Below, piece after piece: positions 13,795 through 55,304 of a DNA stretch of 64,000 nt. The notes beneath the pieces are model-generated. The model ran no database searches. It was not told the origin of the DNA and worked only from the letters and a program-made list of their open reading frames with translations. Source of the DNA: Candidatus Eisenbergiella merdigallinarum. GTDB taxonomy: Bacteria > Bacillota > Clostridia > Lachnospirales > Lachnospiraceae. Every line of letters begins with the position of its first letter. Position 1 is the stretch's first letter. The position numbers and the translations under genes are program-made. The DNA lies in contig DWXE01000006.1 in the NCBI GenBank assembly GCA_019119355.1, positions 100,260 to 164,259 of the forward strand, in the 5' to 3' direction.

Positions 13795-14502
13795 TTAAAA
13801 ATCCTCCCCCGGCGCGTCCAGCGGCCGAAAATCAGGCTCCTGCGGCGTCCCCGCGTTCATCCACGTCTCCCGGCGGAGAATCGAGAAAAAGCCCGGGCGG
13901 TCCGGCAGCGGCTCCCCGCAGAAGGACAGAAGGCTTTCCGCCACCTCCTCGGGGCGGATGTTCTGGCTGCTGCCCGAATCCGCCGTCACGCACAGCTTGC
14001 CGTCCCGGATGCTGCACGCGCGGATGCCGGGGCGGATGTTCACCTGTCTGGTGCCCTTTTTCCCCTCTCTCGTGACGTGGATTTCTTCCCTGGACAAAAA
14101 TTCCGGCAGCTTCGCCTCCATGGCCTGAAAGCTCATCCGGCAATCCGAAAAGCCGATTTCCCAGGACGCGGCCGCCACGCTGGCCATGGCGTTGTCCGTC
14201 CCCTCCGGAAGGGCCTTCGCGTCCAGGATTTCAATGCCTTCCGGGCAGACGGACCGCAGCCGCGCCAGAAAGTCCTCCCGCCCCTGATGGGAGTTGATTT
14301 CCACGTCCATATATTCCCCGCAGCTGCTCATCCCCAGCCCCAGGGGCGAAGCGAAGGTCATGATCTGATGGGGGCTGTAGCCTCCGGAATAGGCCACGTC
14401 GATTTTCGCCCTGCGGATGGCCTTCTGAAAGAAACGCATCACATCCAGATGCCCGATAAACCGCAGAGCCCCGTATTTGGCAAATTTTACCCGCACTCTC
14501 AT
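13795..14502 (-). CDS. TIGR03936 (DUF2344) radical-SAM-associated protein
   Basis: The 235-residue protein begins MRVRVKFAKYGALRFIGHLD and contains AYSGGYSPHQIMTFASPLGLG, both characteristic of the DUF2344 family that always accompanies the TIGR03960 radical-SAM protein. Its biochemical role is unknown; the pairing suggests a shared modification, perhaps of RNA. The start overlaps the upstream gene by 4 nt and the stop lies 6 nt before rng. Confidence 0.88.
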   Translation of the reverse strand: MRVRVKFAKYGALRFIGHLDVMRFFQKAIRRAKIDVAYSGGYSPHQIMTFASPLGLGMSSCGEYMDVEINSHQGREDFLARLRSVCPEGIEILDAKALPEGTDNAMASVAAASWEIGFSDCRMSFQAMEAKLPEFLSREEIHVTREGKKGTRQVNIRPGIRACSIRDGKLCVTADSGSSQNIRPEEVAESLLSFCGEPLPDRPGFFSILRRETWMNAGTPQEPDFRPLDAPGEDF

Positions 14503-16382
14503 CCGTTCTGCCCCTCCCTGGCTTCAAAACATACGCCGCCGCCAAAGCGCGCCGCTCCGCAGCCCTGACATCGGGCCCTGCAGTTCGGCGAGACTTCCTC
14601 CCTCTGCGCCCGTTCCCATTCCCTCCAGAGGAATTCCCGGGTCACTCCACAGTCCAGGAAATCCCAGGGGAAAATCTCGTCCCGTTTTCTCTCCCTGGTG
14701 GTATAGAATCCGATATCCAGGCCGCATTCTTCGAAGGCTTCCAGCCACGCGTCGTTCTGGAAGGATTCACCCCAGGCATCGTAGAGACAGCCCTTCCGAT
14801 AGGCCGTCAAAATCGCTTCCGCCACCCGGCGGTCCCCCCGGGCGAAGACCCCCTCCAGCACGCTCACGTCGGCTTCGTGCCAGTTGTAGCGGATCCGCTT
14901 CTGATTCAGCTGTTCCCGCACGCTGCGCCTGGTGAGTGCCGCCTTTTCCAGGAATTCCTCCTTCGTGCACATTTTTGCCCACTGAAACGGCGTAAACGGC
15001 TTCGGGATGAAGAAGGAGGTGCTGGATACGATCTGTACCGGGCCGTTTCGCTTTTCCTTCGGCACCTTTTCGTAGTACAGGGCCGCGATATCGTTGGAGA
15101 GTTCCGCGATCCCCCGGATATCCTCCTCCGTCTCCGTGGGAAGGCCCAGCATGAAATAGAGCTTGACCCGGCTCCAGCCGCCCTCGAACGCCAGCCCCGC
15201 GCCGTGGAGGATATCTTCCCGGGTCAGCCCCTTGTTGATCACGTTGCGAAGCCGCTGGCTGCCCGCCTCCGGCGCGAAGGTCAGGCTGCTCTTTTTCACA
15301 TCCTGCACCTTTCCCATCACGTCCAGCGAAAAGGCGTCGATCCTCAGGGAAGGCAGGGAAATGTTCACCCTCTGCTCCCGGCAGGTGTCCATCAGAAATT
15401 CCACCAGCTCCTCCAGATGGGAATAGTCGCTGGAGCTCAAAGAACTTAAGGAAATTTCTTCGTAGCCGGTGCTGTCCAGCATCTCCGCCGCATACCGCTT
15501 CAGGGTATCCAGGCTCTTTTCCCTGACCGGACGGTAGATCTGCCCGGCCTGGCAAAAGCGGCAGCCGCGGATGCAGCCGCGCTGGATTTCCAGCACCATC
15601 CTGTCCTGGGTGGCCTTCACGTAGGGGACCACGGGCTTCGTGGGATAGGGAACGCTGTCCAGATCCATCACGATTTCCTTTCGCACCGTCGCGGGCACGC
15701 CCTCCCGTGCGGGCGCGAAGGAAGCGATGGTCCCGTCCTCTTCATAGCTCACCTCATAGAGGGAGGGCACATAGATCCCGGGCACTTCCCGGGCGGCCCG
15801 CAGCAAAAACTCCTCCCTTCCCTCTCCCGCTTTCTTCGTCTTCAGATAGAGATCCATCAGCTGCCGGTAAGCGGTTTCCCCCTCACCGATGTAGAACAGA
15901 TCGAAGAACTCCGCCACGGGCTCCGGGTTATAGGTGCAGGGCCCTCCGCCGATGACGATGGGATCCTCCTGCCCGCGGTCCTTCGCCAGAAGCGGGATGC
16001 CGGAGAGATCCAGAACCTGCAGGATATTGGTATAGCACATCTCGTACTGCAGCGTGATCCCCAGAAAATCGAACGAACGCACCGGATCCTGGGATTCCAG
16101 CGCGAACAGCGGAATGTTTTTCTCCCGCATTATCCTGTCCAGGTCCAGCCACGGCGAATAGACCCGCTCGCACCAGACGTCCCCGTAGCGGTTGAACAGA
16201 TCGTATAAAATCTGGATGCCCAGATGGGACATGCCGATTTCGTACACGTCCGGAAAGCACATGGCAAAGCGGATGTCCACCTTTTCGGGATCCTTCATCA
16301 CCGAATTGACCTCGCCCCCGATGTAGCGGGCGGGTTTGTCTACTTTTAACAAAATTTCATCACTTAACGCTAGTTTTCTCAT
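14499..16382 (-). CDS. TIGR03960 B12-binding/radical-SAM protein with replaced 5' end
   Basis: The 627-residue protein has a B12-binding-like N-terminal domain (RFAMCFPDVYEIGMSHLG) and a radical-SAM domain with the [4Fe-4S] motif CIRGCRFCQAG. A Cys-rich C-terminus (NCRARCQGCGAARFGGGVC) joins it to the DUF2344 partner. The function is not established. The first 16 codons (16335-16382) are 27% GC by my count, with TTA, CTA, AGT and GTA codons, whereas the next 16 are 65% GC. This suggests the adjoining mobile element integrated within the gene and rebuilt its start. AAGG precedes the ATG. Confidence 0.9.
   Translation of the reverse strand: MRKLALSDEILLKVDKPARYIGGEVNSVMKDPEKVDIRFAMCFPDVYEIGMSHLGIQILYDLFNRYGDVWCERVYSPWLDLDRIMREKNIPLFALESQDPVRSFDFLGITLQYEMCYTNILQVLDLSGIPLLAKDRGQEDPIVIGGGPCTYNPEPVAEFFDLFYIGEGETAYRQLMDLYLKTKKAGEGREEFLLRAAREVPGIYVPSLYEVSYEEDGTIASFAPAREGVPATVRKEIVMDLDSVPYPTKPVVPYVKATQDRMVLEIQRGCIRGCRFCQAGQIYRPVREKSLDTLKRYAAEMLDSTGYEEISLSSLSSSDYSHLEELVEFLMDTCREQRVNISLPSLRIDAFSLDVMGKVQDVKKSSLTFAPEAGSQRLRNVINKGLTREDILHGAGLAFEGGWSRVKLYFMLGLPTETEEDIRGIAELSNDIAALYYEKVPKEKRNGPVQIVSSTSFFIPKPFTPFQWAKMCTKEEFLEKAALTRRSVREQLNQKRIRYNWHEADVSVLEGVFARGDRRVAEAILTAYRKGCLYDAWGESFQNDAWLEAFEECGLDIGFYTTRERKRDEIFPWDFLDCGVTREFLWREWERAQREEVSPNCRARCQGCGAARFGGGVCFEAREGQNG
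16318..16382. other. probable attachment-site end of the mobile island
   Basis: Composition changes sharply at about 16331-16337, between codons 16 and 17 of the TIGR03960 gene, next to the island's recombinases. The crossover core is probably in or near AAACCCGCCCGCTACATCGG (minus strand, 16318-16337), which encodes the conserved KPARYIG. I found no second copy in the window, so the other att site should lie past 64 kb or has diverged. This is inference from composition and position. Confidence 0.5.
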
Positions 16383-16534
16383 TCATTACACCTTGATTTA
16401 TTGTACAATTTATACAAACACAATCATTCGTAAAACAATATAGTTGCAAACGACAAAATAAAAACTAAAGAATCTTCCGCAAACATGAATTATCAATATT
16501 ACGAAGAATTTGAGGCCTATGGCGACAAGAGATC

Positions 16535-16578
16535 AAAAATCCTGAATTTTACTACAAAATGACATTATCTGGATTTTT
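16535..16578 (-). terminator. possible terminator of the recombinase operon
   Basis: AAAAATCC (16535-16542) pairs with GGATTTTT (16571-16578) across a 28-nt loop that includes the stop codon of the first recombinase. The A and T runs make it usable on the minus strand. The rest of 16383-16534 is AT-rich and contains only a possible promoter for the TIGR03960 gene (TTGTTT-N18-TATAAA on the minus strand). Confidence 0.4.
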
Positions 16579-17866
16579 TATCACAAAAGAACACCTTATA
16601 GTCTTCTTCTGTAAAAGGGATACCTAACGTATCCTGCTCTGCCTTCATGCTTACGGGTTTCACAAACTCCCATATTTCAGTTAATATAGTGCAATCATAT
16701 ATGGGCTCAGCTTGGGTTACATATACTTCTTTTGTAAAATCCGGAGATGAGTGTCCCAGATATTCCGATACTGCTTTCATATTGATCTCATTATGCTCTA
16801 AGACGCTCGCGTACATATGCCTTAAATCATGCCAATGTATTTCTTTTAATCCGCACATCCTAGTTAACGCGTGGAAGGGGGAAATAAAACTTTTCCTGTT
16901 ATAAGGTGTGCCATCGCATTTGCAGCATATATAATCAAGATCCTTGAACGAGGGTACCCATTTCTTCTGGTGCTCATACCATGCGCGTTTTACAGCAATC
17001 TCATCAGCCACCCATTTAGCCAGAGGTATGCAGCGGATACTGTTGTCTGTTTTAACTTCGAGTTCACGGGTAGTGATCCCATGGTCACCCTCAACTCTGA
17101 TATCGCGTCCGAGCTGCCTGGATATATATAGTGCCAATGTCGTGAAATCAATGTCCGAATATTTTATGGCGATCGTCTCAGAAATGCGGATACCTGTCGT
17201 TACGGCAAGGAGTAAGGGCATGTACATCTCCGGAAAGCACTGTTTGCATGTGAAGAGCATGTTGCGGATCTCTGCTACAGTATACAGTTCAACCTCACGT
17301 TTCTTTGGCTTGGGAACATCTTTCGAAAGGTTCCTTAAAGCCAAAACACTGGGATTGATCGAAAGGAAACGGCTGCTCTGTGCGTAGGCAAAAAGCTGCC
17401 TGATCAATTTGATGCTCTGGTCTTTTACAGATGGGTAACGGATACCCTTTACCGTATCCTCAATAATACTGTGAGTCAGGGCCTCAAGCTTGGTATCTGC
17501 TCCAAAGCCTGGCAGCAGATAGTTGTACAGAATGTTTCTGGATGTCTGGAAGGAGTTATACCTGATACCTTTTTCTTCGATCATATGATAATACAGCCAA
17601 TAGTCAAAGAATTCCTTCACCGTGTATGAAAAAGGTATGTATTCTCCTTTTTCAAGTTCGGAGATCAGGACTTCCTTTGCCCTCCGCGCTTCTGCCTCAG
17701 TTTTATATCCACTCTTCTGCGTTGTATATTTATCTCCAGATTTAAAAAAAAGAGTAAAGCGGATCCGATACCTGCCTTTGTCTTTTGAAACGTCTCCCAT
17801 AAAACGATAACTGACGATCGGCCCGTAAAAGAACGTTGGATTGATATCCGGGGTTATCATTTTCAT
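16565..17866 (-). CDS. tyrosine recombinase/integrase A of the island
   Basis: The 433-residue integrase has an AP2-like arm-binding N-terminus, a SAM-like core-binding domain and the catalytic residues Arg in TTGIRISETIAI, HDLRHMYAS, LGHSSPDFTKEVY with the nucleophile Tyr. I start it at ATG 17866, which overlaps the stop of integrase B as ATGA. The track's 26 extra N-terminal residues would lie inside the upstream gene. It sits at the island's left edge, facing the chromosome. Having two integrases in tandem is unusual for Tn916-type elements and recalls Tn554 TnpA/TnpB. Confidence 0.88.
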   Translation of the reverse strand: MKMITPDINPTFFYGPIVSYRFMGDVSKDKGRYRIRFTLFFKSGDKYTTQKSGYKTEAEARRAKEVLISELEKGEYIPFSYTVKEFFDYWLYYHMIEEKGIRYNSFQTSRNILYNYLLPGFGADTKLEALTHSIIEDTVKGIRYPSVKDQSIKLIRQLFAYAQSSRFLSINPSVLALRNLSKDVPKPKKREVELYTVAEIRNMLFTCKQCFPEMYMPLLLAVTTGIRISETIAIKYSDIDFTTLALYISRQLGRDIRVEGDHGITTRELEVKTDNSIRCIPLAKWVADEIAVKRAWYEHQKKWVPSFKDLDYICCKCDGTPYNRKSFISPFHALTRMCGLKEIHWHDLRHMYASVLEHNEINMKAVSEYLGHSSPDFTKEVYVTQAEPIYDCTILTEIWEFVKPVSMKAEQDTLGIPFTEEDYKVFFCDKKSR

Positions 17867-19050
17867 ACATGTAACCTCTCCGAATACGGAATCATAACGT
17901 CTATGACCTTTCTTGTATCCTCGTCTGCATCCATTATCCCACAATATACATTAAATGTTGTGAGCACGGATTTGTGTCCAAGGAGTTTGCTGATCTCTTC
18001 TAAAGGGACCCCTTTTTCAAGAAGCATCGTAGCAAATTGATGACGGAGGGTATGGAATGATATCTGTTGGACCCCGGCATACTTGCATACCCGGTGGATG
18101 GAAGCAAGAAGGGTATTTTTTGTTTTCCTTGTCCCATACACAGAAAGTGAGACATATTCCGTGTCAATCTTTTCTTGGCCCCTGGATACACAGTTCTTGA
18201 TTATGGATTCATTAAATGCTTTTTTCTTTTCCAATTCATCGAAAAGAAATGCAGGTATTTTTATAACCCGATAACTGTTTCCTTTGGGCTTTTTTTCCTC
18301 CATATAACAGGTATATTCAAAATGATCGTTACTGTCTGACAGGTTATAATTTGTCGTATACTGCCTTGATATACGGACAGTTTGCTTTTCTGCGTCGAAG
18401 TCTCCGTAACGGAGCCCCCTGATCTCGCCTGTTCTCAGCCCTGCAAATAAACCGAGCAGTATTTCAAAGTAATAACCAGGATGCTTAGAGGCTTCCTGCA
18501 CGATCTTTTTCAGATCATTTTTGTTTAACAGTTTGATCTTGGGAGACTTTCTTTTTACCGGTACGATCTCACTTCGGATATCTTTTGAAAAATACCCATA
18601 CTCATAGGCATCCCTTAGTATCCGTTTCATAAACTTCTGGGCTGTTTCACCAGCTGAATCACAAACGGGGATACAGTTTTCGATTATTTCGTTGACATAA
18701 TCTACGGATACATAGTTCAGGAGCACATCACGGCGTATATTAGGGAGGATCAGATGGTAGATCCCCCAAATGCCGATGGTCTTTGTGCTGGTGTCAGTGT
18801 TCGACAGAAAGATGTTTTTTGCCCAATATTCAATATATTCTTTGAAAGTGTATTGCATATTGGCAATGATTTTGATCCGCCTTAGATCAATTTCATATTG
18901 CGCATCATCTAATGCCTGGTATTTTTCCGCCTCTTTTTTTGTGGTAAAACCTCCTTCCTGCGTATATGATATAGTAAAGTTATTCATATTGACAGAACGC
19001 TTTACATACATCCAACTGTTGTTTACAAAGCGAACGCTTCCATTCTCCAT
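17863..19050 (-). CDS. tyrosine recombinase/integrase B of the island
   Basis: The 395-residue protein has an arm-binding N-terminus (ISYTQEGGFTTKKEAEKYQA) and catalytic motifs FAGLRTGEIRGL, HTLRHQFATML and LLGHKSVLTTFNVY, so the Arg-His-Arg-His-Tyr set looks intact. ATG 19050 has GGAGG upstream, and the track's start is an in-frame TTG two codons earlier. It is translated in coupled fashion with integrase A. The two proteins are clearly different sequences rather than a recent duplication, so they may form a heteromeric recombinase. Confidence 0.87.
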   Translation of the reverse strand: MENGSVRFVNNSWMYVKRSVNMNNFTISYTQEGGFTTKKEAEKYQALDDAQYEIDLRRIKIIANMQYTFKEYIEYWAKNIFLSNTDTSTKTIGIWGIYHLILPNIRRDVLLNYVSVDYVNEIIENCIPVCDSAGETAQKFMKRILRDAYEYGYFSKDIRSEIVPVKRKSPKIKLLNKNDLKKIVQEASKHPGYYFEILLGLFAGLRTGEIRGLRYGDFDAEKQTVRISRQYTTNYNLSDSNDHFEYTCYMEEKKPKGNSYRVIKIPAFLFDELEKKKAFNESIIKNCVSRGQEKIDTEYVSLSVYGTRKTKNTLLASIHRVCKYAGVQQISFHTLRHQFATMLLEKGVPLEEISKLLGHKSVLTTFNVYCGIMDADEDTRKVIDVMIPYSERLHV

Positions 19051-19149
19051 TATCAACCTCCGTAAGCGTTAACAAGTAAGAATGATAGTCGTGTAAATTG
19101 TACTATAGGTTTTAATGGATGTCAAAACATAGTGATTCGTAACGTTTTG

Positions 19150-20913: not shown

Positions 20914-21834
20914 TCAAGATACTACATCTTCCGGCGTCACATCCATCCGATATCCTTTAAATACAGGCTGCCTAAGAGCACCTTGTATATTCGGCATATA
21001 TTCAACTACGCATACATGATCCGGATACACCCATACTGCCTGTTCGTTCCCTGCCGGAATCAGATGGAATGGATTTTTACCAGAGACCCTGAGTCCTCTT
21101 ACGGCATCGTTTGTTACACCAGAAGTTACGTGTCCTTTATATACCAGCGTTTCGTGCCTGAATTTCGCCAGAATCAGGCTGTAAATATGCTTGCCTTTTG
21201 GGATGTACCCCGCAACTACGAAATCTTCATCTGCCATCCGCTTACATTTGATCCAGTCACGACTCCGCTTTCCCATCATATAGATACTATCTTTACGTTT
21301 TGCCACTATACCTTCCAACTCACGTTGATCAGCAGCATGGTAAAGGGCCTTCCCGTGTTCTTCAATATACCGTGATATAGCGATCCTCTCAGTTTCTGTG
21401 ACAATTTCCTGCAGGATCTGCTTACGGGTAGTCAGTGGCTCCCAGATCAATTCCTTTCCACTCATATATAAACAGTCGAATGCTACATAAACGGCCGGAA
21501 ATCTGGTAGTTTCCAATTCAATACGGTACTTATCAGTGAGGAATGTCCGCTTCTGAAGTGCATAGAAATCCGGCACTCCATCTTTTAGCACTACTATCTC
21601 CCCGTCCAGGATACAATTTGTACGTACATTTTTGTATATCCGTCCCAATTCCGGGAATCTGCTGTTGATCTGGAAGTTTCTTTTATTTCGGAGATCGACC
21701 TCCCCATGACCAAAATAGGCCAGGCAGCGGATCCCATCCAGTTTCAGCTCATATATCCAACGCTTGTCGTCGAAGGCCTGCTCCTGAGAAGCGATCAGCA
21801 TCGGACTTGCCCCTCTTGCTGAAAAAATATCCAT
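20914..21834 (-). CDS. ATP-dependent DNA ligase (LigC/LigD-ligase type) of NHEJ
   Basis: The 306-residue protein is a stand-alone ATP-dependent ligase. The adenylated lysine is in YELKLDGIRCLAY, the second motif region is in LDGEIVVLKDGVPDF, and IVAKRKDSIY plus DWIKCKRM correspond to motifs IV-V, followed by an OB-fold. It lacks the polymerase and phosphoesterase domains of mycobacterial LigD. Its ATG overlaps the Ku stop by one nucleotide (TAATG), so the two are a classic bacterial NHEJ pair. Location within a mobile element is the unusual point. Confidence 0.9.
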   Translation of the reverse strand: MDIFSARGASPMLIASQEQAFDDKRWIYELKLDGIRCLAYFGHGEVDLRNKRNFQINSRFPELGRIYKNVRTNCILDGEIVVLKDGVPDFYALQKRTFLTDKYRIELETTRFPAVYVAFDCLYMSGKELIWEPLTTRKQILQEIVTETERIAISRYIEEHGKALYHAADQRELEGIVAKRKDSIYMMGKRSRDWIKCKRMADEDFVVAGYIPKGKHIYSLILAKFRHETLVYKGHVTSGVTNDAVRGLRVSGKNPFHLIPAGNEQAVWVYPDHVCVVEYMPNIQGALRQPVFKGYRMDVTPEDVVS

Positions 21835-22622
21835 TATGCTGTTCCTTGTGTTTTATGCTTTTCATTTCCAGTAAGTTCAAGACTTTTTTGTAACGCTTCC
21901 ATGAGATCAATGACATTAGACGGACCATTGGTATCCACAGCGACAATTTCCTGTCCCTGGATCTTTTTGGTTATTGCTGCCCTGAGCCGTTCCTGGTATT
22001 CATCGTGGAAATCAGAGGCATCAAAAGGTTTTGTCATGTTTTCGATTAACATTTTCGCCATATTCAATTCATTTTCATCCAGTTTCATTTTGGGTACAGT
22101 TTTCGGCATGGCAGTAATCTCATCTTGATAAAAGAGAGTTTTTACGATGATTCCATCCTTGGTTGGATACAGTACCAGCAGTTTTTCACTTGTCCCCATG
22201 ACTGTTTTCGCTATCGCTACCTTTTTTTGGGATAGCAGCGACTGACGAAGTAGTTCAAAGGCTTTTTCCGCCCCAGCTTCCGGCATGGCATAATAATCCC
22301 TTTCATAATAGATCATATTGACCTCTGACATTTTGGCAAACTGAAGGATATGGATGGTTTTGTCTTTTTTCGTTTTTATCTTTTCAAGCTCCTCATTGGT
22401 CATAACGACATATTTACCTTTTTCATATTCGTAGCCTTTAATGATATCTTCGCTTTTAATTTCCTTATCACAATGACGGCAATACTTTTTATACTGGATG
22501 CGCTCTTTGCTTTCCCTGCAAAGCTGGTTAAAGTGTATATCATTATCTACTGTCGTTTTATATAAGCCTACAGGAATTAACACAAGCCCCATGGATATGC
22601 TGCCTCTATGTGCAACTGCCAT
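21834..22622 (-). CDS. ku: bacterial Ku DNA-end-binding protein
   Basis: The 262-residue protein starts MAVAHRGSISMGLVLIPVGLY, the typical bacterial Ku N-terminus, and contains the conserved core KKYCRHCDKEI ... DIIKGYEYEKGKYVVMT. Ku homodimers encircle broken DNA ends and recruit the partner ligase. The C-terminal tail (about 210-262) is short and only mildly basic. GAGGTG precedes the start. It may help circularise or protect the element's DNA, or repair the host chromosome; the sequence does not say which. Confidence 0.93.
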   Translation of the reverse strand: MAVAHRGSISMGLVLIPVGLYKTTVDNDIHFNQLCRESKERIQYKKYCRHCDKEIKSEDIIKGYEYEKGKYVVMTNEELEKIKTKKDKTIHILQFAKMSEVNMIYYERDYYAMPEAGAEKAFELLRQSLLSQKKVAIAKTVMGTSEKLLVLYPTKDGIIVKTLFYQDEITAMPKTVPKMKLDENELNMAKMLIENMTKPFDASDFHDEYQERLRAAITKKIQGQEIVAVDTNGPSNVIDLMEALQKSLELTGNEKHKTQGTA

Positions 22623-27180: not shown

Positions 27181-27226
27181 AAAAACTGTTATCTGTCATA
27201 TTCCTTTGGACAAAGGAGGTATTAAA

Positions 27227-28261
27227 ATGGATTACTGTATTTTTCGCTTTAACAAAATAAAATCCCGAAGCATGATGAAGCAGGTATACGACCACCACTT
27301 CCGGTTTGCGGAGCCAGTCAACGTTGATAAGGAATATGAGGCGCTAAACGACCACCGGGTCACGCCAGACGGCGACTATATCAGCAGGTTTCATGAAAGG
27401 CTGAATGAACTGGAATACTATAAAGACCATAATTTCAGAAAAAACGGAGTGATGGCATACGACGTCCTTTTTGCCTATTCCCCTTCCGCCGCCGGAAAAA
27501 TAGACCTTGAGAAGTGGAAACAGGATAATGTGGACTGGCTCAATGAGACTTTCGGGAAAGAGAATGTCCTGGGGGTCGTATACCATTATGACGAAGCCGG
27601 ATATACGGAAGCCAGCACGATACACGGCCATGCTGCTGTCATACCGGTAGACGATAATGGTAAGGTTAACGCTTCCTACTACACTGGTGACAAAGCCAAG
27701 GTTTCAGAGCTACAGGACAGATACGCGGAAGTCATGAAGGCACACGGGCTGGAAAGGGGGATCGAGCAGTCCCTGTCCAGACACGATACACCCAAGCGAT
27801 TTTATGCAAAGCTTGAGGACGCCGTATATGGGATGCCGATGCCTGACCGTACCCCCGGTGAAAGCGCGGAAAAGTATGTGGAGAGGGTAAAAGACGCATG
27901 GCGCACAGAAAGGGCCGCCCATGTCCGTGAAATTCGGGATAAGAACCGTGAGATAGTGGAGATCCGGTCAGATCACAGAAGTGAAACAGAGAAAGACCGC
28001 GTGATCAGGTCACTCAGGGGGAAAATGGAAAAATACAGGGAAGCTGACAGGGAATTGATCCGCGAGTTTGGCAGCCGTCAGGAAGCTGTACAGCTTGCAA
28101 AGACAATGAAGCTGTTGAATGAGGGGATCGAGAACCATCCGGACACAGAAAAGGCCAACAGGATAGCGAATGATGTCATCCAGCTCATAAGCTGGTCTGA
28201 AAAGGAACGAAGGAAGAAAGAGAGAGAAAAGGATCAGGAGATCGCAGATGTGCGTAAATAG
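27227..28261 (+). CDS. MobV-family (Pre/Mob) relaxase
   Basis: The 344-residue protein has the plasmid-recombination/MobV relaxase features: an N-terminal FRFNKIKSRS, then the metal-binding histidine motif spread over VVYHYDEAGYTEAS and TIHGHAAVIPV. The C-terminal third is a charged coiled coil. It would nick oriT and pilot single-stranded element DNA through a conjugation channel supplied by another element, since no type IV secretion genes are visible. AAAGGAGG lies 7 nt before ATG 27227. Confidence 0.9.
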   Translation: MDYCIFRFNKIKSRSMMKQVYDHHFRFAEPVNVDKEYEALNDHRVTPDGDYISRFHERLNELEYYKDHNFRKNGVMAYDVLFAYSPSAAGKIDLEKWKQDNVDWLNETFGKENVLGVVYHYDEAGYTEASTIHGHAAVIPVDDNGKVNASYYTGDKAKVSELQDRYAEVMKAHGLERGIEQSLSRHDTPKRFYAKLEDAVYGMPMPDRTPGESAEKYVERVKDAWRTERAAHVREIRDKNREIVEIRSDHRSETEKDRVIRSLRGKMEKYREADRELIREFGSRQEAVQLAKTMKLLNEGIENHPDTEKANRIANDVIQLISWSEKERRKKEREKDQEIADVRK

Positions 28262-35406: not shown

Positions 35407-36990
35407 CTAAGGGATTTTATCCCTTTGAAAAATTCGGCATAGTTGGATTGAATTCCGGCTATGCCGTTTTTTCTGTTTTGCTTGGGGTATCCAGGCACCG
35501 ATGTAGTTGTAAACGATCTGGATACGCTGCTGCCTATGACCGTCCACCTTTTCGGCTTGAAACACAATAATGCGTTCCACGAACTCTCGAATAATCTCGG
35601 CATCCAATTCCTTAATATCCGTGTATTTCCTTACCAATGACAGGAAGTATTCGGTGTTAAGGGATTTTTCTTTTGCCTCATCAAGGAAATCCTGCAATTC
35701 AGCCACACGGCTTTCAAGCTGTTTCTGCTCGGCATCGTAGGTGGCGGTCATTTTGGCAAAACGCTCATCACTGATTTTGCCTTCGATGTTGTCCTCGTAC
35801 AAACGCTGCACAATGGTATCCAGTTTGGATATTCTTGCCCTTGCCTGTTCGTATTCCTTGCGGCATTCACGCAGACTGCGGTCAATTTCTCGTGTTTTGC
35901 TCTTGGTTACCATTTCCACAAATTCTGATTCATGCTCCCTTGCAAAGGCTGTGACCTGCTGAAGGTCTGCCAAGAGCAGTTGCTCTATGACCACATTTCG
36001 AATTTGGTGGGATGGGCATTCGTGCTTGCCTTTTTTACGATAGGTGGCACATACAAAATGTTCCTTATCGTGTTCCCAGTCCCTCGACCTTACTTGATAC
36101 AGTTTCTGACCACAGTCGGCGCAGTAGACCATGCCAGAGAGAATCGGCATTTCACCCATCGGTGTGACCCTGCGTCTGCCATCTCGGATACGCTGAACGA
36201 TGTCGAAGGTTTCCTTATCAATAATGGCTTCGTGGGTATCTTCAAAAATCTGCCATTCCGACGGGTCATTTTTCATCTGCTTTTTCAGCTTGTAGGACTT
36301 GCGATAAGTCTTAAAATTGACTGTGCGACCGAGGTATTCCTGTCTTTCCAGAATATGTACCACAGTGGAGGTTGTCCATCGGTACGGGTCATCGTTCTCA
36401 CGATATGCCGCAGCAGGAACATTCACACCCATTCGTTTGCCGTATTCCGCAGGAGTTTCAATCTTTCGCTTACGCAGTTCCTTGGCAATCTGTGTCGGGC
36501 CATAGCCGTTCATACAGAGTCTGAAAATCTCCCTAACCACATCAGCTGCATCTTCATCCACAATCCAGTGCGTCTTGTCCTCCGGATCTTTCTTATAGCC
36601 ATAAGGTGGATTGGTACACAGCGGTTTTCCTGCCTGTCCCTTTGCTTTGAACACAGCACGGATTTTCTTGCTTGTGTCCTTGGCATAAAATTCGTTGATG
36701 ATATTGAGAAATGGAGTAAAATCGCTTTCCTGCTGATTGATACTGTCCACACCATTGTTGATGGCGATAAATCGCACATCTGCTTGTGGGAATGCAATCT
36801 CTGTGTAATAACCGACCTTTAGGTAATCACGACCCAAACGGCTCATGTCTTTCACAATTATCGTTCCGATTCGACCTGCATCCATTTCCGCCATCATGCG
36901 CTGGAAACCTTCACGTTCGAAGGTAGTGCCGGACACCCCATCGTCTATGTAAACGCTGTCTTTGATACAAGGAAAATCCCCAATAAACAA
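35407..36990 (-). pseudogene. large serine recombinase, 5'-truncated
   Basis: The 527-residue ORF matches large serine recombinases of the TnpX/TndX type: the second half of the resolvase domain (VYIDDGVSGTTFEREGFQRM, VKDMSRLGRDYLKVG), the recombinase domain (PPYGYKKDPEDKTHW), the zinc ribbon (YCADCGQKLY ... HECPSHQI) and a coiled coil. The first 55-60 residues, including the Tyr-x-Arg-x-Ser catalytic serine, are missing. Homology begins at about 36965 and the sequence upstream is an unrelated terminator, so the gene is a decayed remnant of another transposon and is probably inactive. Confidence 0.8.
35435..35472 (+). terminator. terminator downstream of the CHC2 gene
   Basis: CGGCATAG (35435-35442) pairs with CTATGCCG (35459-35466), followed by six Ts. 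It lies inside the 3' end of the opposing recombinase pseudogene. A smaller palindrome AAGGGAT-TTT-ATCCCTT lies at 35409-35426. Confidence 0.75.
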
Positions 36991-37169: not shown

Positions 37170-37829
37170 TTACACCTCACTAAATACTTTTGAGAAGATC
37201 ATCTTTGTAAAAACATCGTCTATCTGCTTTGCAATCTGCTTTGATTCTATCAGGGTACCGAGTTCTATATTGCCCTGTTGCCCATGATAGGACAGATTCG
37301 CAGATGTTATTAAGGTCTGCTGCTGGTCAACCGAAATAACCTTTGCATGAAGTGCAGCCATCTTATCATCGTCCTGATGATAGTTATAGATTTTTAGAAA
37401 CCGTCCTTTATAGCGCAGTATCTTATCGAATCCCTGCTGCTTATCAATATCATTCACAAAGAACTTCACGAATACACCTCGCTGGCTTTTAAGAACGATT
37501 GTGTCGACCAGTTCTGAAAAGTATGAGGATAAGGAGTATCCCGTAATCAAGATATTCCTTTCCGCTCCGTTTATCATAGACTGAACCACATTCATCGTAG
37601 TTCTCGCATTGATAGAAAAAGATGGAGGTGCGGTGACAACAAGCGAAACCTTATCTGCTTCGGACATATTCATGGCGCCGATAATCGTAGCTATGATGTC
37701 CTCGCAATGTGCATCGGACAATTCCGGGCAGCTCCGCTTCAGCATAGCTTCAGCATTAGTTGTCCCATTAGCCACATCGCTTTTGACCGTATTTAAGAAT
37801 ATCTCTTTGTTTAGATTTCCACCTGGCAT
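37170..37829 (-). CDS. drmC: DISARM PLD-family protein DrmC
   Basis: The 219-residue protein has one phospholipase-D motif, LHAKVISVD...ITSANLSYHG, followed by NIELGTLI, as in DrmC. PLD-fold enzymes act on phosphodiesters, but DrmC is reported as dispensable for protection in some DISARM systems. It is the last gene of the operon. Its start lies 19 nt inside drmB, and no terminator precedes the repeat array downstream. Confidence 0.85.
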   Translation of the reverse strand: MPGGNLNKEIFLNTVKSDVANGTTNAEAMLKRSCPELSDAHCEDIIATIIGAMNMSEADKVSLVVTAPPSFSINARTTMNVVQSMINGAERNILITGYSLSSYFSELVDTIVLKSQRGVFVKFFVNDIDKQQGFDKILRYKGRFLKIYNYHQDDDKMAALHAKVISVDQQQTLITSANLSYHGQQGNIELGTLIESKQIAKQIDDVFTKMIFSKVFSEV

Positions 37830-39559
37830 AAGTCACCTACTAATTCCTTGAAATATGAGCATTCCTCGCGTCCTGGAATAGGAACTACAAGACCTCTGTC
37901 AAGCATTCTGTTTCCATTCTCGCACGCCGTTTCAGATATCATGCAGCACGAGTGGCAAGCGGCACCGTTTGAGTTTTTGCCGGCAGGCAAATTGCTCATA
38001 CATTCCGGGTCATTCGTACAAACAAGAGCTTCTTGGAAGGCGTCCCTCATGAGATTCGTCATCTGATCGATATTACCAAGTTCAACCAGACCGCCGAGTG
38101 AGCCTTCCTTATCGGAGCTTCCTGTGTATAAAAGAATGCCGGCCATTTTATCTCCAAAATAGATTCTTTCTCTAATAGCCGAAGAAGAATATCCCGATGA
38201 CATAGACATTTGCTTAATCATCAAGTGAGCGAATGTGTGCATCAGAACATAAACGGCATTTCTTACGACCGTAATCGTCCAGCCTTTTGACTCGCAGAAC
38301 TCTCTGTACGAGTCAGAATACTTTTCTGATAGGCCTTTCACCGTTGGAGAATTGAGCCACGCCGCAAGAGTATCTTTGTTAAACTCTATAAAGATGCCTT
38401 CTCCGTTTACTTCCGCCGCAGGTAGCCAGCGTTCCTGCTTACCCTTGCTTAATGCTACAACATTCGGCTGTTCATCTGCATCCGGATCGGGAGCGTCTAC
38501 TCTTGTGAATCCAAGAAGAACACGAACCTCTCTGAGTCTGGTCACTCGGATAATGCGGCTGAAATACTTCTGCAAGTACCCCGGCAGAGCATCCTCTTCA
38601 GCCTTGAAATGTTTCTTGTTTGATTCATATGCAGGGTCATTGTGGTGTGTGATGGCATTGTATTCCATCTGTTTGATTTCAGTGAACTCTTTGATATTGC
38701 TCATGCGCCGCTCAAGCGCATCATCAAACTCATCCCTCGAATAAGCAGAGAAATACATTTCATATATTTTGGTTATTCCATCATCTCCCATAAGCTGTTT
38801 TGCAAGCTCGATATCACGAAGATGCTCATCGATTAAGTTATACAGCGGATTGATCCACGGCGGAATAGAGATTGCACTCCGACTCACAGCGAAGTAAACA
38901 TTAGACGCACCACGCTGTGAAGGAATGATGGGTTTGTTGCACTTATGGTTTTTCACATTCGGTCTGAACGGATGATGGCCGGGGCAGGCAACGCCGTCAA
39001 AATTATCTCGCTGTGTTGCACCGCTCATGCTGCGTTTCGCACCGCAGGAGCATTCTACCCACATATCCGCAAGAGTGGAGGTATTGCCCGTTGAATACAT
39101 TTTTAAGGTACCGTTGCAATCGGACTCGCCTCTGTGTACCCACCACTTCCAAGGGAAGTCAGACAAATGACCGTCCTCGCAGATTGTGATGAAACGGGAT
39201 GGATAGGCAGGGCGATGGCACTCAGGGCAAGTGACACCATACTTGAGATACTTATCCAAGTCAAAATACTTTCTGGCATCAAACAGCTTTCCGCATTTTA
39301 AATTAGAGCATACGTGCCAGTATGGGAAGGTCACAACAGGAACATCACCCGAAAAACTTGTCCGCGGCATATAGAAGCAATCAACGCCCAAGTATGATGC
39401 AAGCCTGCCATCAATTATTTTTTGTCCCTTCTGTTTCCAGTAGGAGATGTCAAGAATCGTAACCGAGTCCTTTACCGCATCGACTACCGATCCGGGACCA
39501 AAGGTGGTTATGATTTGGTTTGGACGTAACTCTCCAAGTTTATTATTATCAAAAGCCAT
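37811..39559 (-). CDS. drmB: DISARM DUF1998 protein DrmB
   Basis: The 582-residue protein begins LGELRPNQIITTFGPGSVVD, the standard DrmB N-terminus, has zinc-binding pairs (HVCSNLKCGKLF ... GVTCPECHRP), and ends with the DUF1998 cysteine cluster TNDPECMSNL ... ACHSCCMISETACENGN. DrmB forms a complex with the DrmA helicase that recognises incoming unmodified DNA. ATG 39559 has GGAGG 5 nt upstream and lies 1 nt after the drmA stop; the track's 32 extra residues overlap drmA. Confidence 0.93.
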   Translation of the reverse strand: MAFDNNKLGELRPNQIITTFGPGSVVDAVKDSVTILDISYWKQKGQKIIDGRLASYLGVDCFYMPRTSFSGDVPVVTFPYWHVCSNLKCGKLFDARKYFDLDKYLKYGVTCPECHRPAYPSRFITICEDGHLSDFPWKWWVHRGESDCNGTLKMYSTGNTSTLADMWVECSCGAKRSMSGATQRDNFDGVACPGHHPFRPNVKNHKCNKPIIPSQRGASNVYFAVSRSAISIPPWINPLYNLIDEHLRDIELAKQLMGDDGITKIYEMYFSAYSRDEFDDALERRMSNIKEFTEIKQMEYNAITHHNDPAYESNKKHFKAEEDALPGYLQKYFSRIIRVTRLREVRVLLGFTRVDAPDPDADEQPNVVALSKGKQERWLPAAEVNGEGIFIEFNKDTLAAWLNSPTVKGLSEKYSDSYREFCESKGWTITVVRNAVYVLMHTFAHLMIKQMSMSSGYSSSAIRERIYFGDKMAGILLYTGSSDKEGSLGGLVELGNIDQMTNLMRDAFQEALVCTNDPECMSNLPAGKNSNGAACHSCCMISETACENGNRMLDRGLVVPIPGREECSYFKELVGDLCQVEI

Positions 39560-39560
39560 G

Positions 39561-42500
39561 TCAATCCTCCGTGTAATAGAACATATTCGCAGAACTCTCG
39601 ACCTCACGCATGGAACGAAGTGTAGCTTTTTCGTTCTCATCGTGCGGCTGATCATACGGATTCATCAACCTGTTATAGCGTTCAGTTCCAACAACGTAAT
39701 ACCGCAGCGGTTTCGTCTGCGCTGCCTGAAGTTTCCACCAGTCAATGAAGCGGTCAATTTCTTCCTCCGCATCTGCTCGTGCTGACGGCTTGATGATATT
39801 AAGCCGGTCAATTATCAGCTTCTTTACAGAATCAAGCTGCTCCGTGGTTAGTGAGCCAATAGCCGCCGCATCCGGGTTATTTGCCATGTTCGGGAAGTTC
39901 AAGCGTATTGCTGATATTATCAGCGCGTGCATGACACGATCTCTTGCTCTGGCGGAGAACGGTGTTGCCGTTGTTCCTTCAACAAAACGATAAAGCTGCG
40001 AATGATAGCCTGTAAAATTCTCGTAGTGCGATAAGTCACGGGGACGGTACGCATTGTAGAGCGTAACTACAAGTCCTGGGAATGCACGACCGATACGGCT
40101 TGTTGCCTGGATATATTCCGAGTTCTGTTTCGGCTGACCTGTCACAACCATCAGTCCAAGACGGTCAACATCCATACCAACAGCAATCATATTTGTCGCG
40201 ATAGCCGTATCCAGACAGTCTTTTGAATCACAAGTCGTTTCAAGCTGATTCAGCTTTTCCGGAATCTTGTACGATGACATACGGGAAGTGATCTCCACGT
40301 TGTGGTTCAGATACCTCTGCTTGTCCAAGCCGTACTTATTCTTGATACGATATATTCTCTTTGGAATGTCATCTTGTAAAAGTCTGACCGCACCGCCGAG
40401 TTCTCGGATACTGTTGAAATAGCCAACAAGAGAATAGTACGGATCAATCACATCCTTATACTCATCTTGAAGGGAGTATGTATAAGCAGCCTGCAGGATA
40501 ATGGCGTAAACACGCAGCAAGGCGGTCTTAACAGACTGACCGGGTGCGCAGACGCCCACATATTTTCGGAACGGATCATCCTCTACGGAAATCTCTCTGA
40601 TGAAGAAACTATCTCCGATTTCAAATCCGTTCGGCGGGAACTGCGTTGTATTCTTTCTTGCGTAAAGGCATCTGGTCTGCGCCTCTGCATTCTTGATTGT
40701 GGCTGTTGAAACGACATACTTCGGCTTAATACCATCGTGGATACACATATCCTCGATAATCGTTTCATAGGCACCGTAAACCGTACCAAGCGGTCCCGTT
40801 ATAAGATGCAACTCGTCCTGAATAATCAATTCCGGCGGCAGGAACGGTCTAATATTGACGATCGTTGACGCAGGCAAAGAAGCCGTTTTATTGTGGCGGC
40901 CGTGTTCTGCTCCAATCGCAACATAACCGTCTCGGCTGCATTTTCTGTCCACTCTGCCAAAGAGCGCATTCGTATTCACATCCCAAGGCAGGCGCGCAAA
41001 TTTATCAACGGTCGACAGAATAATAGTTGGACACTTGGCGTATATCTCTTCATCGACAAGATAAACCGGAATCGGTATTCTGTCGTTTTTATATCTGTAA
41101 AACTGACAATCTCGATCAGAACAGAAAATCTCAATAGACTTCTTGTCGGTGTCAATGTTAAAGTTCTCTTCTTTGAGAGGCTTTCCGCAGAACGGGCAAG
41201 TTAGAAGCTGCTTATAGACATGGTTCCTTGCGCTTCTTGCAGCCTGTGGATTATCAGCCTTTTCAATAAACTCATCAAATTTGTTAGGCGTTACTCCGCC
41301 TCCTACCCAGAATCCAATGCTGATAGGCTCTTTGCCAAACTGTGGGTATGCCTGCCGCCTGATCATTTCGGCAGCAAGCACCATCTTGGTAATACGGTCT
41401 CTCTGCTGTGTGGTGAGCAAACGGAGGGTATATCGGAGCATAACGGTTACACCGCCATCTCGATTGTAATTCTCTCCATTAGACGCTCTGAGCCTTCTGT
41501 TGGCGATTACGAACGCCATAAGGCCAAGGTAGGCCTCTGTTTTACCGCCGCCTGTAGGAAAGTAAAGCAGGTCAACGACCTCACGGTCTTTATGTTTCGG
41601 ATCAACGATTCCGGCAAGATTCATCAGAATAAAGGCAATCTGGAACGGACGCCATCCGAAGTTATTATCAGGATTCTTCGGATTAATGAAATCCTGGAAA
41701 TTGCACTCTGTTCCTGTGCCGTGCTTCTTTGCGTAGCCCTTGATGCTGTTCTGCAAGAAGATTACACGGTTCATAAAGCAGAAAGCCTCGAATGAGATGT
41801 CATCATTTTCAATAATGCTGATACCCTCACGTATACGCTTCAGAGCATCCAGGCAGCGTTCAATGACCTTGTTGCCTATCTTGTCCTTAAAATCAGGATT
41901 GCTCATCCTTGCGTTTCCGAGAAGTGTAGAGTTGATCCACTTTTCATAGGATTCAGCCAGGGTATTAAGTTTACCGATGGTTTCTTCCTTTTTCGATTTT
42001 ACAGACATGGTAAATGTCGAGAAGAAGTATCGGTCAAATCCATCCAAAGCGGCGCTGACACCCGGAAATTCATATTCTGGTATAAACGCTGATTTCACAT
42101 ATGTTGTTCTGCCATCAACCGGGGTATCCCACACCGCTGCGCAGCCACGTCCGCGTCCCATGATCGGGCGCTGCTCAAAATAAAACTCATCGGAGGCAAG
42201 TATCTCTCTGCAAATATGTTCTGCAATAAACGAGGCAGAACCGTCCTCCGCATAAGCCTTGATTTCCACCTGGAACATAATGGCCTCTGCACTGTTGGCA
42301 GGATTCTTTCTCTTGTTAATAACATATGCCGTTACAAGAGAATATCCTCCCTTCAAAGGAATACGGGACACATGAACATGAACATTGGAGTCGCAGGTAA
42401 GCTGGTAATCCTTTGTTCGTGTAAAATCCTTAAACTGGACACGAACCGTTTCTTCCATAGGCTGGCGCGTATATATAGCACGGCTGTGTTCTTTTTCATC

Positions 42501-42884
42501 CTTACCGGTATATTTTTCAGAGGATTTTACATAGTCTCCCCATGTCACATCCAAGTTGATACTCTCTGTATCGCTTTGGATGTAGAAACTGATACCGATA
42601 GAGGACGGCAGCTGAAAATGTGTAGTAGATATAGGCTCATTGTCATCATCCTCGCCTGCCGTAAAATCCTCACCATCCTCAAATGCCATATCAGCATCAA
42701 CTTCCTGCTCTCCGGCGCCAGAGTAATCCTCGTCATCGCTCTGAATATCGAGCATACCCACGAGATAGGCATAGCGTGGATTCTCTTCAAGAACCTCTTC
42801 CTTTTCTCTGGGACCGATAAGGTCAGTTCTTATGGCATCAATGATTTTCTGCCTGACCTCCGAATACTTAAATCTGTCAGCCAT
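39561..42884 (-). CDS. drmA: DISARM helicase DrmA
   Basis: The 1107-residue protein is the large DISARM SF2 helicase. An acidic N-terminal region (GEDFTAGEDDDNEP) precedes the helicase core: Walker A YFPTGGGKTEAYLGL, DEAD-box variant IIQDELHLITGPLG, STATIKNAEAQ and motif VI QATSRIGRAFPG. A zinc pair CPFCGKPL ... CSDRDC sits inside the core. DrmA with DrmB loads on unmethylated 5'-overhang DNA. GGAGGAGG precedes the ATG, which shares one base with the stop of the Res-like gene. Confidence 0.94.
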   Translation of the reverse strand: MADRFKYSEVRQKIIDAIRTDLIGPREKEEVLEENPRYAYLVGMLDIQSDDEDYSGAGEQEVDADMAFEDGEDFTAGEDDDNEPISTTHFQLPSSIGISFYIQSDTESINLDVTWGDYVKSSEKYTGKDEKEHSRAIYTRQPMEETVRVQFKDFTRTKDYQLTCDSNVHVHVSRIPLKGGYSLVTAYVINKRKNPANSAEAIMFQVEIKAYAEDGSASFIAEHICREILASDEFYFEQRPIMGRGRGCAAVWDTPVDGRTTYVKSAFIPEYEFPGVSAALDGFDRYFFSTFTMSVKSKKEETIGKLNTLAESYEKWINSTLLGNARMSNPDFKDKIGNKVIERCLDALKRIREGISIIENDDISFEAFCFMNRVIFLQNSIKGYAKKHGTGTECNFQDFINPKNPDNNFGWRPFQIAFILMNLAGIVDPKHKDREVVDLLYFPTGGGKTEAYLGLMAFVIANRRLRASNGENYNRDGGVTVMLRYTLRLLTTQQRDRITKMVLAAEMIRRQAYPQFGKEPISIGFWVGGGVTPNKFDEFIEKADNPQAARSARNHVYKQLLTCPFCGKPLKEENFNIDTDKKSIEIFCSDRDCQFYRYKNDRIPIPVYLVDEEIYAKCPTIILSTVDKFARLPWDVNTNALFGRVDRKCSRDGYVAIGAEHGRHNKTASLPASTIVNIRPFLPPELIIQDELHLITGPLGTVYGAYETIIEDMCIHDGIKPKYVVSTATIKNAEAQTRCLYARKNTTQFPPNGFEIGDSFFIREISVEDDPFRKYVGVCAPGQSVKTALLRVYAIILQAAYTYSLQDEYKDVIDPYYSLVGYFNSIRELGGAVRLLQDDIPKRIYRIKNKYGLDKQRYLNHNVEITSRMSSYKIPEKLNQLETTCDSKDCLDTAIATNMIAVGMDVDRLGLMVVTGQPKQNSEYIQATSRIGRAFPGLVVTLYNAYRPRDLSHYENFTGYHSQLYRFVEGTTATPFSARARDRVMHALIISAIRLNFPNMANNPDAAAIGSLTTEQLDSVKKLIIDRLNIIKPSARADAEEEIDRFIDWWKLQAAQTKPLRYYVVGTERYNRLMNPYDQPHDENEKATLRSMREVESSANMFYYTED

Positions 42885-45535
42885 TATGCCTCCTCCTTCA
42901 CGGCATGAGCCGTACCGAGTGTATATTTACAGGTATTGCCAAGATGAATGTTGTCATCTGAAATCAGCTTGTACTCCCAAGGCTTATGATCCGGGTCTGC
43001 CGTTGAAGCAAAGCGACACCACTTTATGCCTTCTCTTGCTTTCGATACGACCTCATCTGATGTCACTTCATTCAGAGCCTTAACCTCGACCATGAATTTT
43101 CCCGTAGTTGTTTCCACGAGGAAATCAGGATTATACTGCTGACCTGCTTTCCAGAACAAGCCAAGCTGATTAAGCGGCGGCTTGATCCAACGGATAACAT
43201 CCGGATCTTCCTCCAGAATAATGGAGAACAGACGCTCCGTGTCGCTGTCAAAAGCATTCGCCGGATAATATGACTTCTTGTAGCCTGTAAAGAGATACTT
43301 CTTGATATTGCTCTTGTCAGAGAACGGTTTATCATACTTAACCTTTCCGTCTTCTTTGACGTTCTTCACGAACTTACGGAACAGAATAAGGTCTTTCTGA
43401 ATGATGTGAACATCCTGCGTTTTTCTGTCCATATGCTCATAAATCTGCTTGCGGATATCGGCCACGATCAAAGAAGCATAGCGGCGAACGATTCTCCGTT
43501 TGTTTTCTTCATCCCCGGGTATCTGGCTTAAATACTGCTCAACCACGTCAATAACAAAATCCGCATCGTCATAAGACAACTCGCTGATGGAATCGAGGAG
43601 CATACAAGCAAGAGTGTTCATGGCGTCATTGACTTCAAGAATCTGCGCATCCACGACAGAAAGAAGCTGCTGATTGATAGCGTCAAAACGCTCAATCTTA
43701 GCCATAGCCACTTCAAAGTCAGCGATTGTGCGTTTCACCTCAAAGCGATTAAACTTCACCTCCGAAGTGGTCTGCACGAGGATTTTCGGGACAGAGATAG
43801 CCTTCGCCGAATACTCCGAGACCGCCTTTACAAACTCATCCTTGGTAAGGGGTTGTTTACCGGGTTTACCACTGGTCGCTGCCTGCGGTTGTTCCTGTGC
43901 AGGAGCCGTTGCCTCAGCAGAGTCGCCGGAAAGCATCTCAGGATGAAGGTCAAAGAGGGTCATCTGCCCAGGGTCTTCATTCTTATCCTTCTTCTGCGCA
44001 GCCATAAAGTTCTTCACATATTCCTGATAAATCTCAAGCTGCGTTTTCGGATTGCTGACTTCGGCAAAGGACTTCGCGCCGGTTGCAGTAATCGCAAAAT
44101 CCAGCAGAGAAAGCTGTCCATCGTCCACAGTAGCAGATACGCCTACGGACTCCGATGGTTCAACAGTTGTCTTATCAAGATCACGATAACGGAAAATATC
44201 ACTGCTCTTAATCTCGTCCACAAGTTCTCTGTAGTGATCATGGGCAACGATATCAAGAGAGTCCAAGTCTTCGTTGCCGGTTTGTTCTCCGAACGGAAGT
44301 CTTAAGCCACGACCAATAGTCTGCATAGCGAGGATATCGCTCTTTGCCGCATTGAGCGGGATAATCGTAAAGAGGTTATTGACATCCCAGCCTTCCTTCA
44401 GCTTATAAACATGCAAAACAATCTCGACCGGATTAGTGGCACTCTCTATAGAGAGCAAAAGACGGATGTTTTCTTCCGACTCCTCGCCGGTCTGCTTTGA
44501 ATGTATTTCGATAACCTTGCCCTTATACTTTCCGCCTTGGAAATCATCGCTGTCTATCAACGCACGGATTTTCTTGGCATGATCCGTATCTTTGCAGGCA
44601 ACAAGAACAATTGGTTTTACATAGTCAAGGTCGTTTTCGCTGCAATATTCACGCAGTACAGCCTTACGATGCTCATGAAGCGTAAGACCGTCTCGGATTT
44701 TCATTTCTTCAATATCGTCTTGGTTATAGCCCGCCATGTTAGAGCGTCCCATAACGACAGGAATCTTCAGATATCCCTCGACAGCGCCACGAGCCAGATC
44801 ATAAGCATAGATGACGTTCGATGTGGTCTTCGGCGTAGCGGTAAACTCAAGACCGAGAACCGGTTTAAGATAATTGATTGCCTTCATTGACGCCGGAGCA
44901 TAATAACGGTGCGCCTCATCCATGCAGATAACGAGATCGTCAAACTGTGCCAATACATCGGCAAAGGAAGCACCCAGCGTTTCCTTGAATTTATGGAAAT
45001 TGAACTGCGTGTCCGTCTTGCTGTTAAAGATTTTTCCAATGTTGAAAATGAAAAGCTGAATATCAGAAGTCTTTTCAACAATCAGAGTCATCTGATCATA
45101 CTTTATGGGATAGGTATCATAATTCTCACCATCGTAAACCTTCGGTCTACCCATTTCTGACTCAAGTCCTTTGAAAATATACTTCGGATGGTTTGGATTG
45201 GACTCCTTGCGCAGCTTTTCATAGATGGTGTTTCCGGGAGCAAGAATGAAAAAGTGCTTATAGCCCTTCGTTTTGTACAGATAATAGATGCTTGCTCCCA
45301 TCAGACGGGTCTTTCCGATACCCGTGGCCATAGCATAACAGAAGGACGGGAACTCAAACCCGGCTTTGACCTTGCGCTGCTTCTCGCAGTACTCCGATGC
45401 GGCTGCCTCAATAACATCCTTGCTGTCCTTCTTATAATCACAATGCGAACTGATGGCATCGAGGTAAGAGAGAGCCTCCTCCTGTGGAGTCCTTAGGCTC
45501 ATTGCGTATTTGATTCTGTTTACTATCTCTGACAT
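42884..45535 (-). CDS. type III Res-like helicase-endonuclease
   Basis: The 883-residue protein is an SF2 translocase with Walker A MATGIGKTRLMGA, MDEAHRYYAP, LEFTATP and QTIGRGLRLPFG, plus a C-terminal nuclease domain with an intact PD-(D/E)XK signature NPDFLV...MVEVKA. This is the architecture of the restriction subunit of type III R-M. It directly abuts the Mod-like methyltransferase gene (stop and start adjacent, no gap). It is not one of the standard DISARM genes, so its presence between mod and drmA is unusual. Confidence 0.9.
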   Translation of the reverse strand: MSEIVNRIKYAMSLRTPQEEALSYLDAISSHCDYKKDSKDVIEAAASEYCEKQRKVKAGFEFPSFCYAMATGIGKTRLMGASIYYLYKTKGYKHFFILAPGNTIYEKLRKESNPNHPKYIFKGLESEMGRPKVYDGENYDTYPIKYDQMTLIVEKTSDIQLFIFNIGKIFNSKTDTQFNFHKFKETLGASFADVLAQFDDLVICMDEAHRYYAPASMKAINYLKPVLGLEFTATPKTTSNVIYAYDLARGAVEGYLKIPVVMGRSNMAGYNQDDIEEMKIRDGLTLHEHRKAVLREYCSENDLDYVKPIVLVACKDTDHAKKIRALIDSDDFQGGKYKGKVIEIHSKQTGEESEENIRLLLSIESATNPVEIVLHVYKLKEGWDVNNLFTIIPLNAAKSDILAMQTIGRGLRLPFGEQTGNEDLDSLDIVAHDHYRELVDEIKSSDIFRYRDLDKTTVEPSESVGVSATVDDGQLSLLDFAITATGAKSFAEVSNPKTQLEIYQEYVKNFMAAQKKDKNEDPGQMTLFDLHPEMLSGDSAEATAPAQEQPQAATSGKPGKQPLTKDEFVKAVSEYSAKAISVPKILVQTTSEVKFNRFEVKRTIADFEVAMAKIERFDAINQQLLSVVDAQILEVNDAMNTLACMLLDSISELSYDDADFVIDVVEQYLSQIPGDEENKRRIVRRYASLIVADIRKQIYEHMDRKTQDVHIIQKDLILFRKFVKNVKEDGKVKYDKPFSDKSNIKKYLFTGYKKSYYPANAFDSDTERLFSIILEEDPDVIRWIKPPLNQLGLFWKAGQQYNPDFLVETTTGKFMVEVKALNEVTSDEVVSKAREGIKWCRFASTADPDHKPWEYKLISDDNIHLGNTCKYTLGTAHAVKEEA

Positions 45536-47188: not shown

Positions 47189-47199
47189 AATGTTCTCTC

Positions 47200-51094: not shown

Positions 51095-51119
51095 ATAGTT
51101 TCCTCGTCATTCTTTGATT

Positions 51120-51377: not shown

Positions 51378-51383
51378 TTTGTT

Positions 51384-55209: not shown

Positions 55210-55217
55210 TTTTTCTC

Positions 55218-55246
55218 AAGGGACACCCTCAATTTCGGTGTCCCTT
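55218..55246 (+). terminator. intrinsic terminator
   Basis: AAGGGACACC (55218-55227) and GGTGTCCCTT (55237-55246) form a 10-bp stem with a T-rich tail just after the sigma-like gene. Confidence 0.8.
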
Positions 55247-55304
55247 TTCTGTTTAACAGCGGAAGGACAAAACAACATCCCTTCCGGAAAGTGAGGTAAG
55301 TGCC

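Follow-up and report, generated by a model that had tools for sequence, protein, structure and literature searches.

A mobile island has probably replaced the start of a conserved radical-SAM gene with a start of its own, leaving the gene intact. The DNA stretch analyzed, hereafter "the window", comprises the last 64,000 nucleotides of a contig of 164,259 bp, and the contig stops at position 164259, which is window position 64000. The source genome (G000) is a MAG that is 90% complete and consists of 46 contigs. The gene under study (14499..16382, minus strand) encodes a B12-binding radical-SAM protein of 627 amino acids, whose N-terminus is MRKLALSDEILLKVDKPARYIG. It matches the TIGR03960 profile (NCBIfam) with 1050.8 bits over profile positions 1-605 and has no internal stops. 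A preliminary description of the region held that the host gene stays functional; the part of this claim that can be read from sequence, a full-length intact reading frame (1051 bits to TIGR03960), stands. Under the comparisons described below, the start of the gene differs from the body in type, composition and ancestry, and we infer that the gene is an intact hybrid made of a replaced start and a vertically inherited body.

The first 16 codons, from the ATG to K16 (MRKLALSDEILLKVDK; 16335..16382, minus strand), contain 13 G+C among 48 bases reading from 16382 down to 16335, and codons 17-32 contain 31 of 48. The composition break lies between K16 and P17, in MRKLALSDEILLKVD-K/PARYIG. Codons CTA, TTA, AGT, AGA, GTA and TTG have relative frequencies of 0.00-0.05 in the adjacent host genes. 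When codon usage was scored by log-likelihood, codons 1-16 fitted the island (-21.3) better than the host (-33.9), and codons 17-32 fitted the host (-13.9 vs. -18.7 for the island). Five host genes, scanned in 1949 segments of 48 nt, nowhere reached this AT-richness; their lowest G+C was 0.40. Hence, the G+C figures of the preliminary description were exact, and so were its statements that the codons are rare in the host and that integrases are adjacent. Together with the codon incongruence and the lost clade N-terminus presented below, these features make the first 16 codons putative element-borne DNA.

Upstream of the ATG, an AT-rich leader of 182 nt (16383..16564, minus strand) extends to the stop codon of a recombinase gene, int2, and contains an AAGGTG ribosome-site-like run 8 nt 5' of the ATG. 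A search for a consensus promoter on the coding strand of the leader found no sigma-70-like match, and the element promoter that had been considered probable was thus not borne out.

AT-richness alone was considered as proof of a replaced start and rejected, as island-free relatives also start AT-rich. Across 109 related loci, the first 16 codons have a mean GC content of 0.35, compared with 0.47 for the body, which corresponds to an average drop of 0.125 (sd 0.085). At 0.32, the drop in the window is among the largest; a few loci that are free of an island, L138 among them, nevertheless equal it, and composition alone is therefore not decisive. Loci L010, L122, L130 and L138 have strongly AT-rich starts of the MRKLAL type and intact upstream host neighbors, namely the his operon and c1 (a label used here for a small conserved gene). 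In part, these loci show what the preliminary description had named as evidence against its own reading, and other lines of evidence were required. Element-like starts were more frequent where synteny is broken (11/27 against 7/67, p=0.0025, with a threshold chosen after looking), and a comparison of element-likeness and synteny on means gave a weak result (p=0.09). The association is suggestive only.

Stronger evidence came from the ancestry of the start and the body. Most genus mates begin with M[QR]LPDF.NRLALSDEIL.S[VI][DE]KPARYIG, with host-like GC, and the window start differs. In a tree of the body, from which the first 20 residues were omitted, the gene of the window and that of the sister species G001 are nested within the M[QK]LP clade, with supports of 95/93 and 98/90. 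Because the body nests inside this clade, the M[QK]LP N-terminus is, on the tree, lost in the window lineage. Mapping the M[QK]LP label on the body tree requires three changes, and G006 represents a second loss.

Codon identity, scored only at positions with the same residue, gave a concordant picture. Over codons 2-16, the window shows identities of 0.10-0.33 with genus mates and close kin that carry an M[QK]LP start, compared with 0.40-0.61 in the body (about 50-61% for the genus mates). Over the same codons, identity is 0.85 with L133 (body, 0.47), 82% with both L138 and L186, and 0.75 with L166 (body, 0.32). The baseline for all pairs is 0.44 at the 5' end and 0.45 in the body, so there is no general 5' excess. 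As codons 2-16 match other genera over genus mates in a region devoid of such excess, the start and the body of the gene have separate histories. In the first 45 nt, identity is 0.93 with L133 and 0.80 with G001, and identity between the window and G001 further downstream is 0.84. As a side observation, the region upstream of the TIGR03960 gene in L133 (L133:3-6456) contains unusual genes, some of them secretion- or phage-tail-like by eye.

Two tandem tyrosine recombinase genes, both with TTG starts, adjoin the radical-SAM gene. Gene int2 (16565..17944, minus strand; PF00589 2e-17, PF14659) has its stop codon 182 nt 5' of the radical-SAM ATG. Behind it lies int1 (17863..19056, minus strand; PF00589 1e-23), which overlaps the int2 start. 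The same pair is found in a distant genome, L173, directly 5' of its own TIGR03960 gene, where int2 is separated from the ATG by 369 nt. The int1 products of the window and L173 are 41% identical, and both recombinases form clades with their L173 counterparts (100/99 for int1 and 100/100 for int2), apart from the 19 uvrB-site pairs described below. Homology between the 182-nt leader of the window and the L173 leader was not detectable. Around 300 nt of the L173 leader, up to the ATG, are homologous in L179 (Faecalimonas umbilicata), and a part is homologous in L184. Upstream of its radical-SAM gene, L184 keeps an int2 fragment. In L179, the leader is preceded by an excisionase-like (Xis) tail and by a broken int1, a remnant riddled with stops.

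A close int1 homologue was absent from 12 genus mates. Viral contigs yielded no radical-SAM gene and only remote int1 relatives, and among the matches listed for phage records there were only integrases with <28% identity. In L166, an HTH_17 excisionase-like open reading frame is located ~120-310 nt upstream of the radical-SAM gene, with no recombinase nearby; we read it as another element or a remnant at the same site.

Relatives of the recombinase pair were also detected at a second gene. In about 19 other genomes, a related int1+int2 pair precedes a leader and uvrB. In two of these genomes, displaced uvrB copies were seen. G041 carries (loci L107/L254/L255), 25 kb from the intact uvrB, a second leader with uvrB codons 1-91 that ends in ...TATTTTGTGTCCTACTA, where the intact copy continues; G187 (loci L091 and L094) carries a leader with codons 1-91/92 that ends at the same place. 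The core of the uvrB element can be narrowed to TATTTTGTSTCCTACTA, at codons ~86-91. Integration inside uvrB would bring in a leader and the first codons and leave the earlier start truncated, as seen. Apparently, the elements of G041 and G187 represent repeated insertions at one site, and the pattern indicates that this recombinase family works inside coding sequence. Far ends of uvrB elements were not found in the stretches fetched from G074, G053, G311, G059, G080 and G394. Like the window, these Lachnospiraceae elements found here possess a homologous recombinase pair (tandem genes of the same subfamily, in the same order), a leader and then the start of a conserved gene. Unlike the window, whose pair is located at TIGR03960 and not 5' of uvrB, and forms a separate clade in trees, they target uvrB, have their crossover at ~codon 91, carry ~275 bp of coding sequence and, in two genomes, show displaced copies.

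Altogether, these observations support two proposals of the preliminary description, namely that an element integrated where a conserved gene has its 5' end and that it supplied the start. The support comes from the loss of M[QK]LP, the codon incongruence, the L173 pair, whose leader is common to L179 and L184, and the uvrB analogues with their displaced 5' copies.

The position of the crossover is less precise. Because the composition break and a drop in the similarity to L133 (0.92 to 0.68) coincide there, a crossover at codons 15-22 of the radical-SAM gene is favored, with the predicted region running from ~K16 to G22 (16318..16337, minus strand). By the logic of uvrB, however, the crossover could lie deeper than K16. 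The exact core that had been placed at KPARYIG could not be substantiated: attR was not found in the window or the genome, and the only match in the window (16275-16288 and 35542-35555, 14 bp) is at chance level. Patterns KPARYIG, LALSDEIL and M[QK]LPDF did not reveal a displaced native start in the 90%-complete assembly, and the displaced 5' end that had been predicted is thus absent from it; the contig ends at 64 kb of the window. Second copies of the radical-SAM start in the L173, L179, L184 and L166 genomes amounted to chance matches only.

Two other candidate sites in the genome of the window were discarded. On contig C25, the his operon and c1, which are the ancestral neighbors, are not followed by a radical-SAM start. 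On contig C10, a homologue of the methyltransferase gene that adjoins the radical-SAM gene in G001 is surrounded by a cluster of small genes, which contains no radical-SAM fragment. This cluster (L225, G000:C10:96500-116000) is made of small AT-rich genes, including methyltransferase-, kinase-, acetyltransferase- and NUDIX-like genes by eye, and one of its genes adjoins the radical-SAM gene in G001.

Behind the recombinases lie a DUF1351 gene, an end-joining pair formed by an ATP-dependent ligase and Ku as cargo (20914..22622, minus strand; profile matches), a UvrD-like helicase gene, and a MobV relaxase gene (27206..28261, plus strand; Mob_Pre; NF041497 MobV 119.2 bits, cut-off 100). The relaxase suggests a potentially mobilizable element. 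A large serine recombinase (35407..36990, minus strand; Resolvase/Recombinase/DUF4368) perhaps marks a second element, nested or adjacent. Defense cargo detected with PADLOC (37170..54356, minus strand) comprises DrmC, DrmB, DrmA, a type III RM system, DrmD, DrmMII, LmuB-like and LmuA-like genes. Within it, 37170-51094 is a DISARM-type cluster in which the type III restriction-modification pair separates DrmA from DrmD, and the LmuB-like and LmuA-like / ABC-three-component CTD11 genes (51384-54356) adjoin that cluster. The window ends with a phage replication module (Gam, Sak4-like, helicase, primase and HNH; 54718..64000, plus strand; PHROGs) that is cut by the contig end. The module has a GC content of ~0.55, adjoins the lower-GC island and is possibly a separate prophage. 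Hence, the region behind the recombinases may contain more than one element.

Our preferred explanation is that an integrative, probably mobilizable island with int1 and int2 would have inserted site-specifically into the coding sequence of the TIGR03960 gene, at its 5' end. The int2-side end of the island would carry the leader, the ribosome site, the ATG and ~16 codons in which the conserved LALSDEIL motif is restored, and a crossover near codons 15-22 would yield one intact hybrid gene. The native start, M[QK]LP...LALSDEIL in the ancestor, would have been displaced to the island's far end, which would hold an M[QK]LP..LALSDEIL fragment followed by a short copy around GTAGACAAACC. Transcription of the radical-SAM gene from the island, as well as current mobility of the island, may be presumed.

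One alternative is an earlier swap, in the common ancestor of the two species G000 and G001, brought about by a previous element or by foreign DNA through homologous recombination; the present island would then have come later, to the same position or close to it. G001 shares the AT-rich MRKLAL start (MRKLALNDEILLKIE) and has no int gene in the 1.1 kb upstream, where its contig ends; therefore, the swap may predate the present island. The G000-G001 identities at the 5' end and downstream are compatible with common descent, and L179 illustrates that starts can outlast decayed elements. The first 45 nt of the window are, however, nearer to L133 than to G001, which favors a later, separate replacement, and we regard an ancestral swap as unlikely. 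That the start is native seems to us still harder to defend: the island would have inserted upstream of the gene, within its leader or promoter, and the MRKLAL start would be the host's, its AT-richness maintained for translation initiation. AT-rich MRKLAL-type starts are indeed the common form in Lachnospiraceae, also where the his-operon neighbors are intact, the start type is common to G001, and attR was not found in the window or the genome. Against this idea, the body nests within the M[QK]LP clade, the codons match other genera instead of genus mates with no general 5' conservation excess to account for it, and the GC-rich starts of genus mates show that an AT-rich start is not required. 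An assembly or binning artefact that misjoined island and gene might be suspected in a MAG of this completeness and fragmentation whose contig ends in phage genes; it is highly improbable, as the arrangement is found independently in L173, and in decayed or truncated form in L179 and L184, and the hybrid reading frame is intact.

Beyond the replacement by the island in the window, a tentative speculation, which we consider possible but would not favor, is that the first ~16 codons might be a mobile module in Lachnospiraceae, overwritten repeatedly by several kinds of elements, with foreign starts outlasting element decay. N-termini would thus travel apart from gene bodies, and the recombinase family would switch between TIGR03960 and uvrB, carrying the start of each gene in its attachment site.

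The case also cautions that conserved genes may owe their N-termini and upstream signals to horizontal transfer, which misleads the annotation of start sites and the study of promoters. For mapping attachment sites within a conserved repair gene, the uvrB elements with codons 1-91 displaced offer a ready system. TIGR03960 was not mentioned in the literature searched, and a search for uvrB as an integration target gave nothing relevant; both the TIGR03960 target and the tandem-recombinase family appear undescribed so far. Start replacement by an island is a strategy known from SXT/R391 at prfC and IMEVchUSA3 at dusA, and the target is new. Hence, a TIGR03960 site and a tandem-recombinase family with uvrB as sister target are added to the few known islands that supply the start under which a host gene is placed.

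SXT/R391 ICEs integrate at prfC (PMC2791158) and are reported to supply a new promoter and N-terminus (PMC8409611). They resemble the window in having a tyrosine recombinase, a conserved-gene 5' end as target, an element-borne N-terminus and an intact gene; they differ in their single integrase, their target and their gammaproteobacterial hosts, and promoter and function were tested in SXT/R391. The dusA-specific islands, such as IMEVchUSA3 (PMC8409611), whose integrases are a described family (PMC4482086), also insert into a gene's coding sequence at the 5' end, restore the frame, alter the N-terminus and are mobilizable. Their integrase family and target are different, expression was measured in the dusA case, and the window has two tandem recombinases. 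Closer in taxonomy, streptococcal ICEs occupy the 5' end of ftsK, rbgA or ebfC, 5'-end insertions being rare (PMC4701971). They share with the window the Bacillota host, tyrosine integrases grouped by target gene and this rare type of insertion; unlike the window, where no conjugation module was identified, they have a typed one, and they use other genes and one integrase each.
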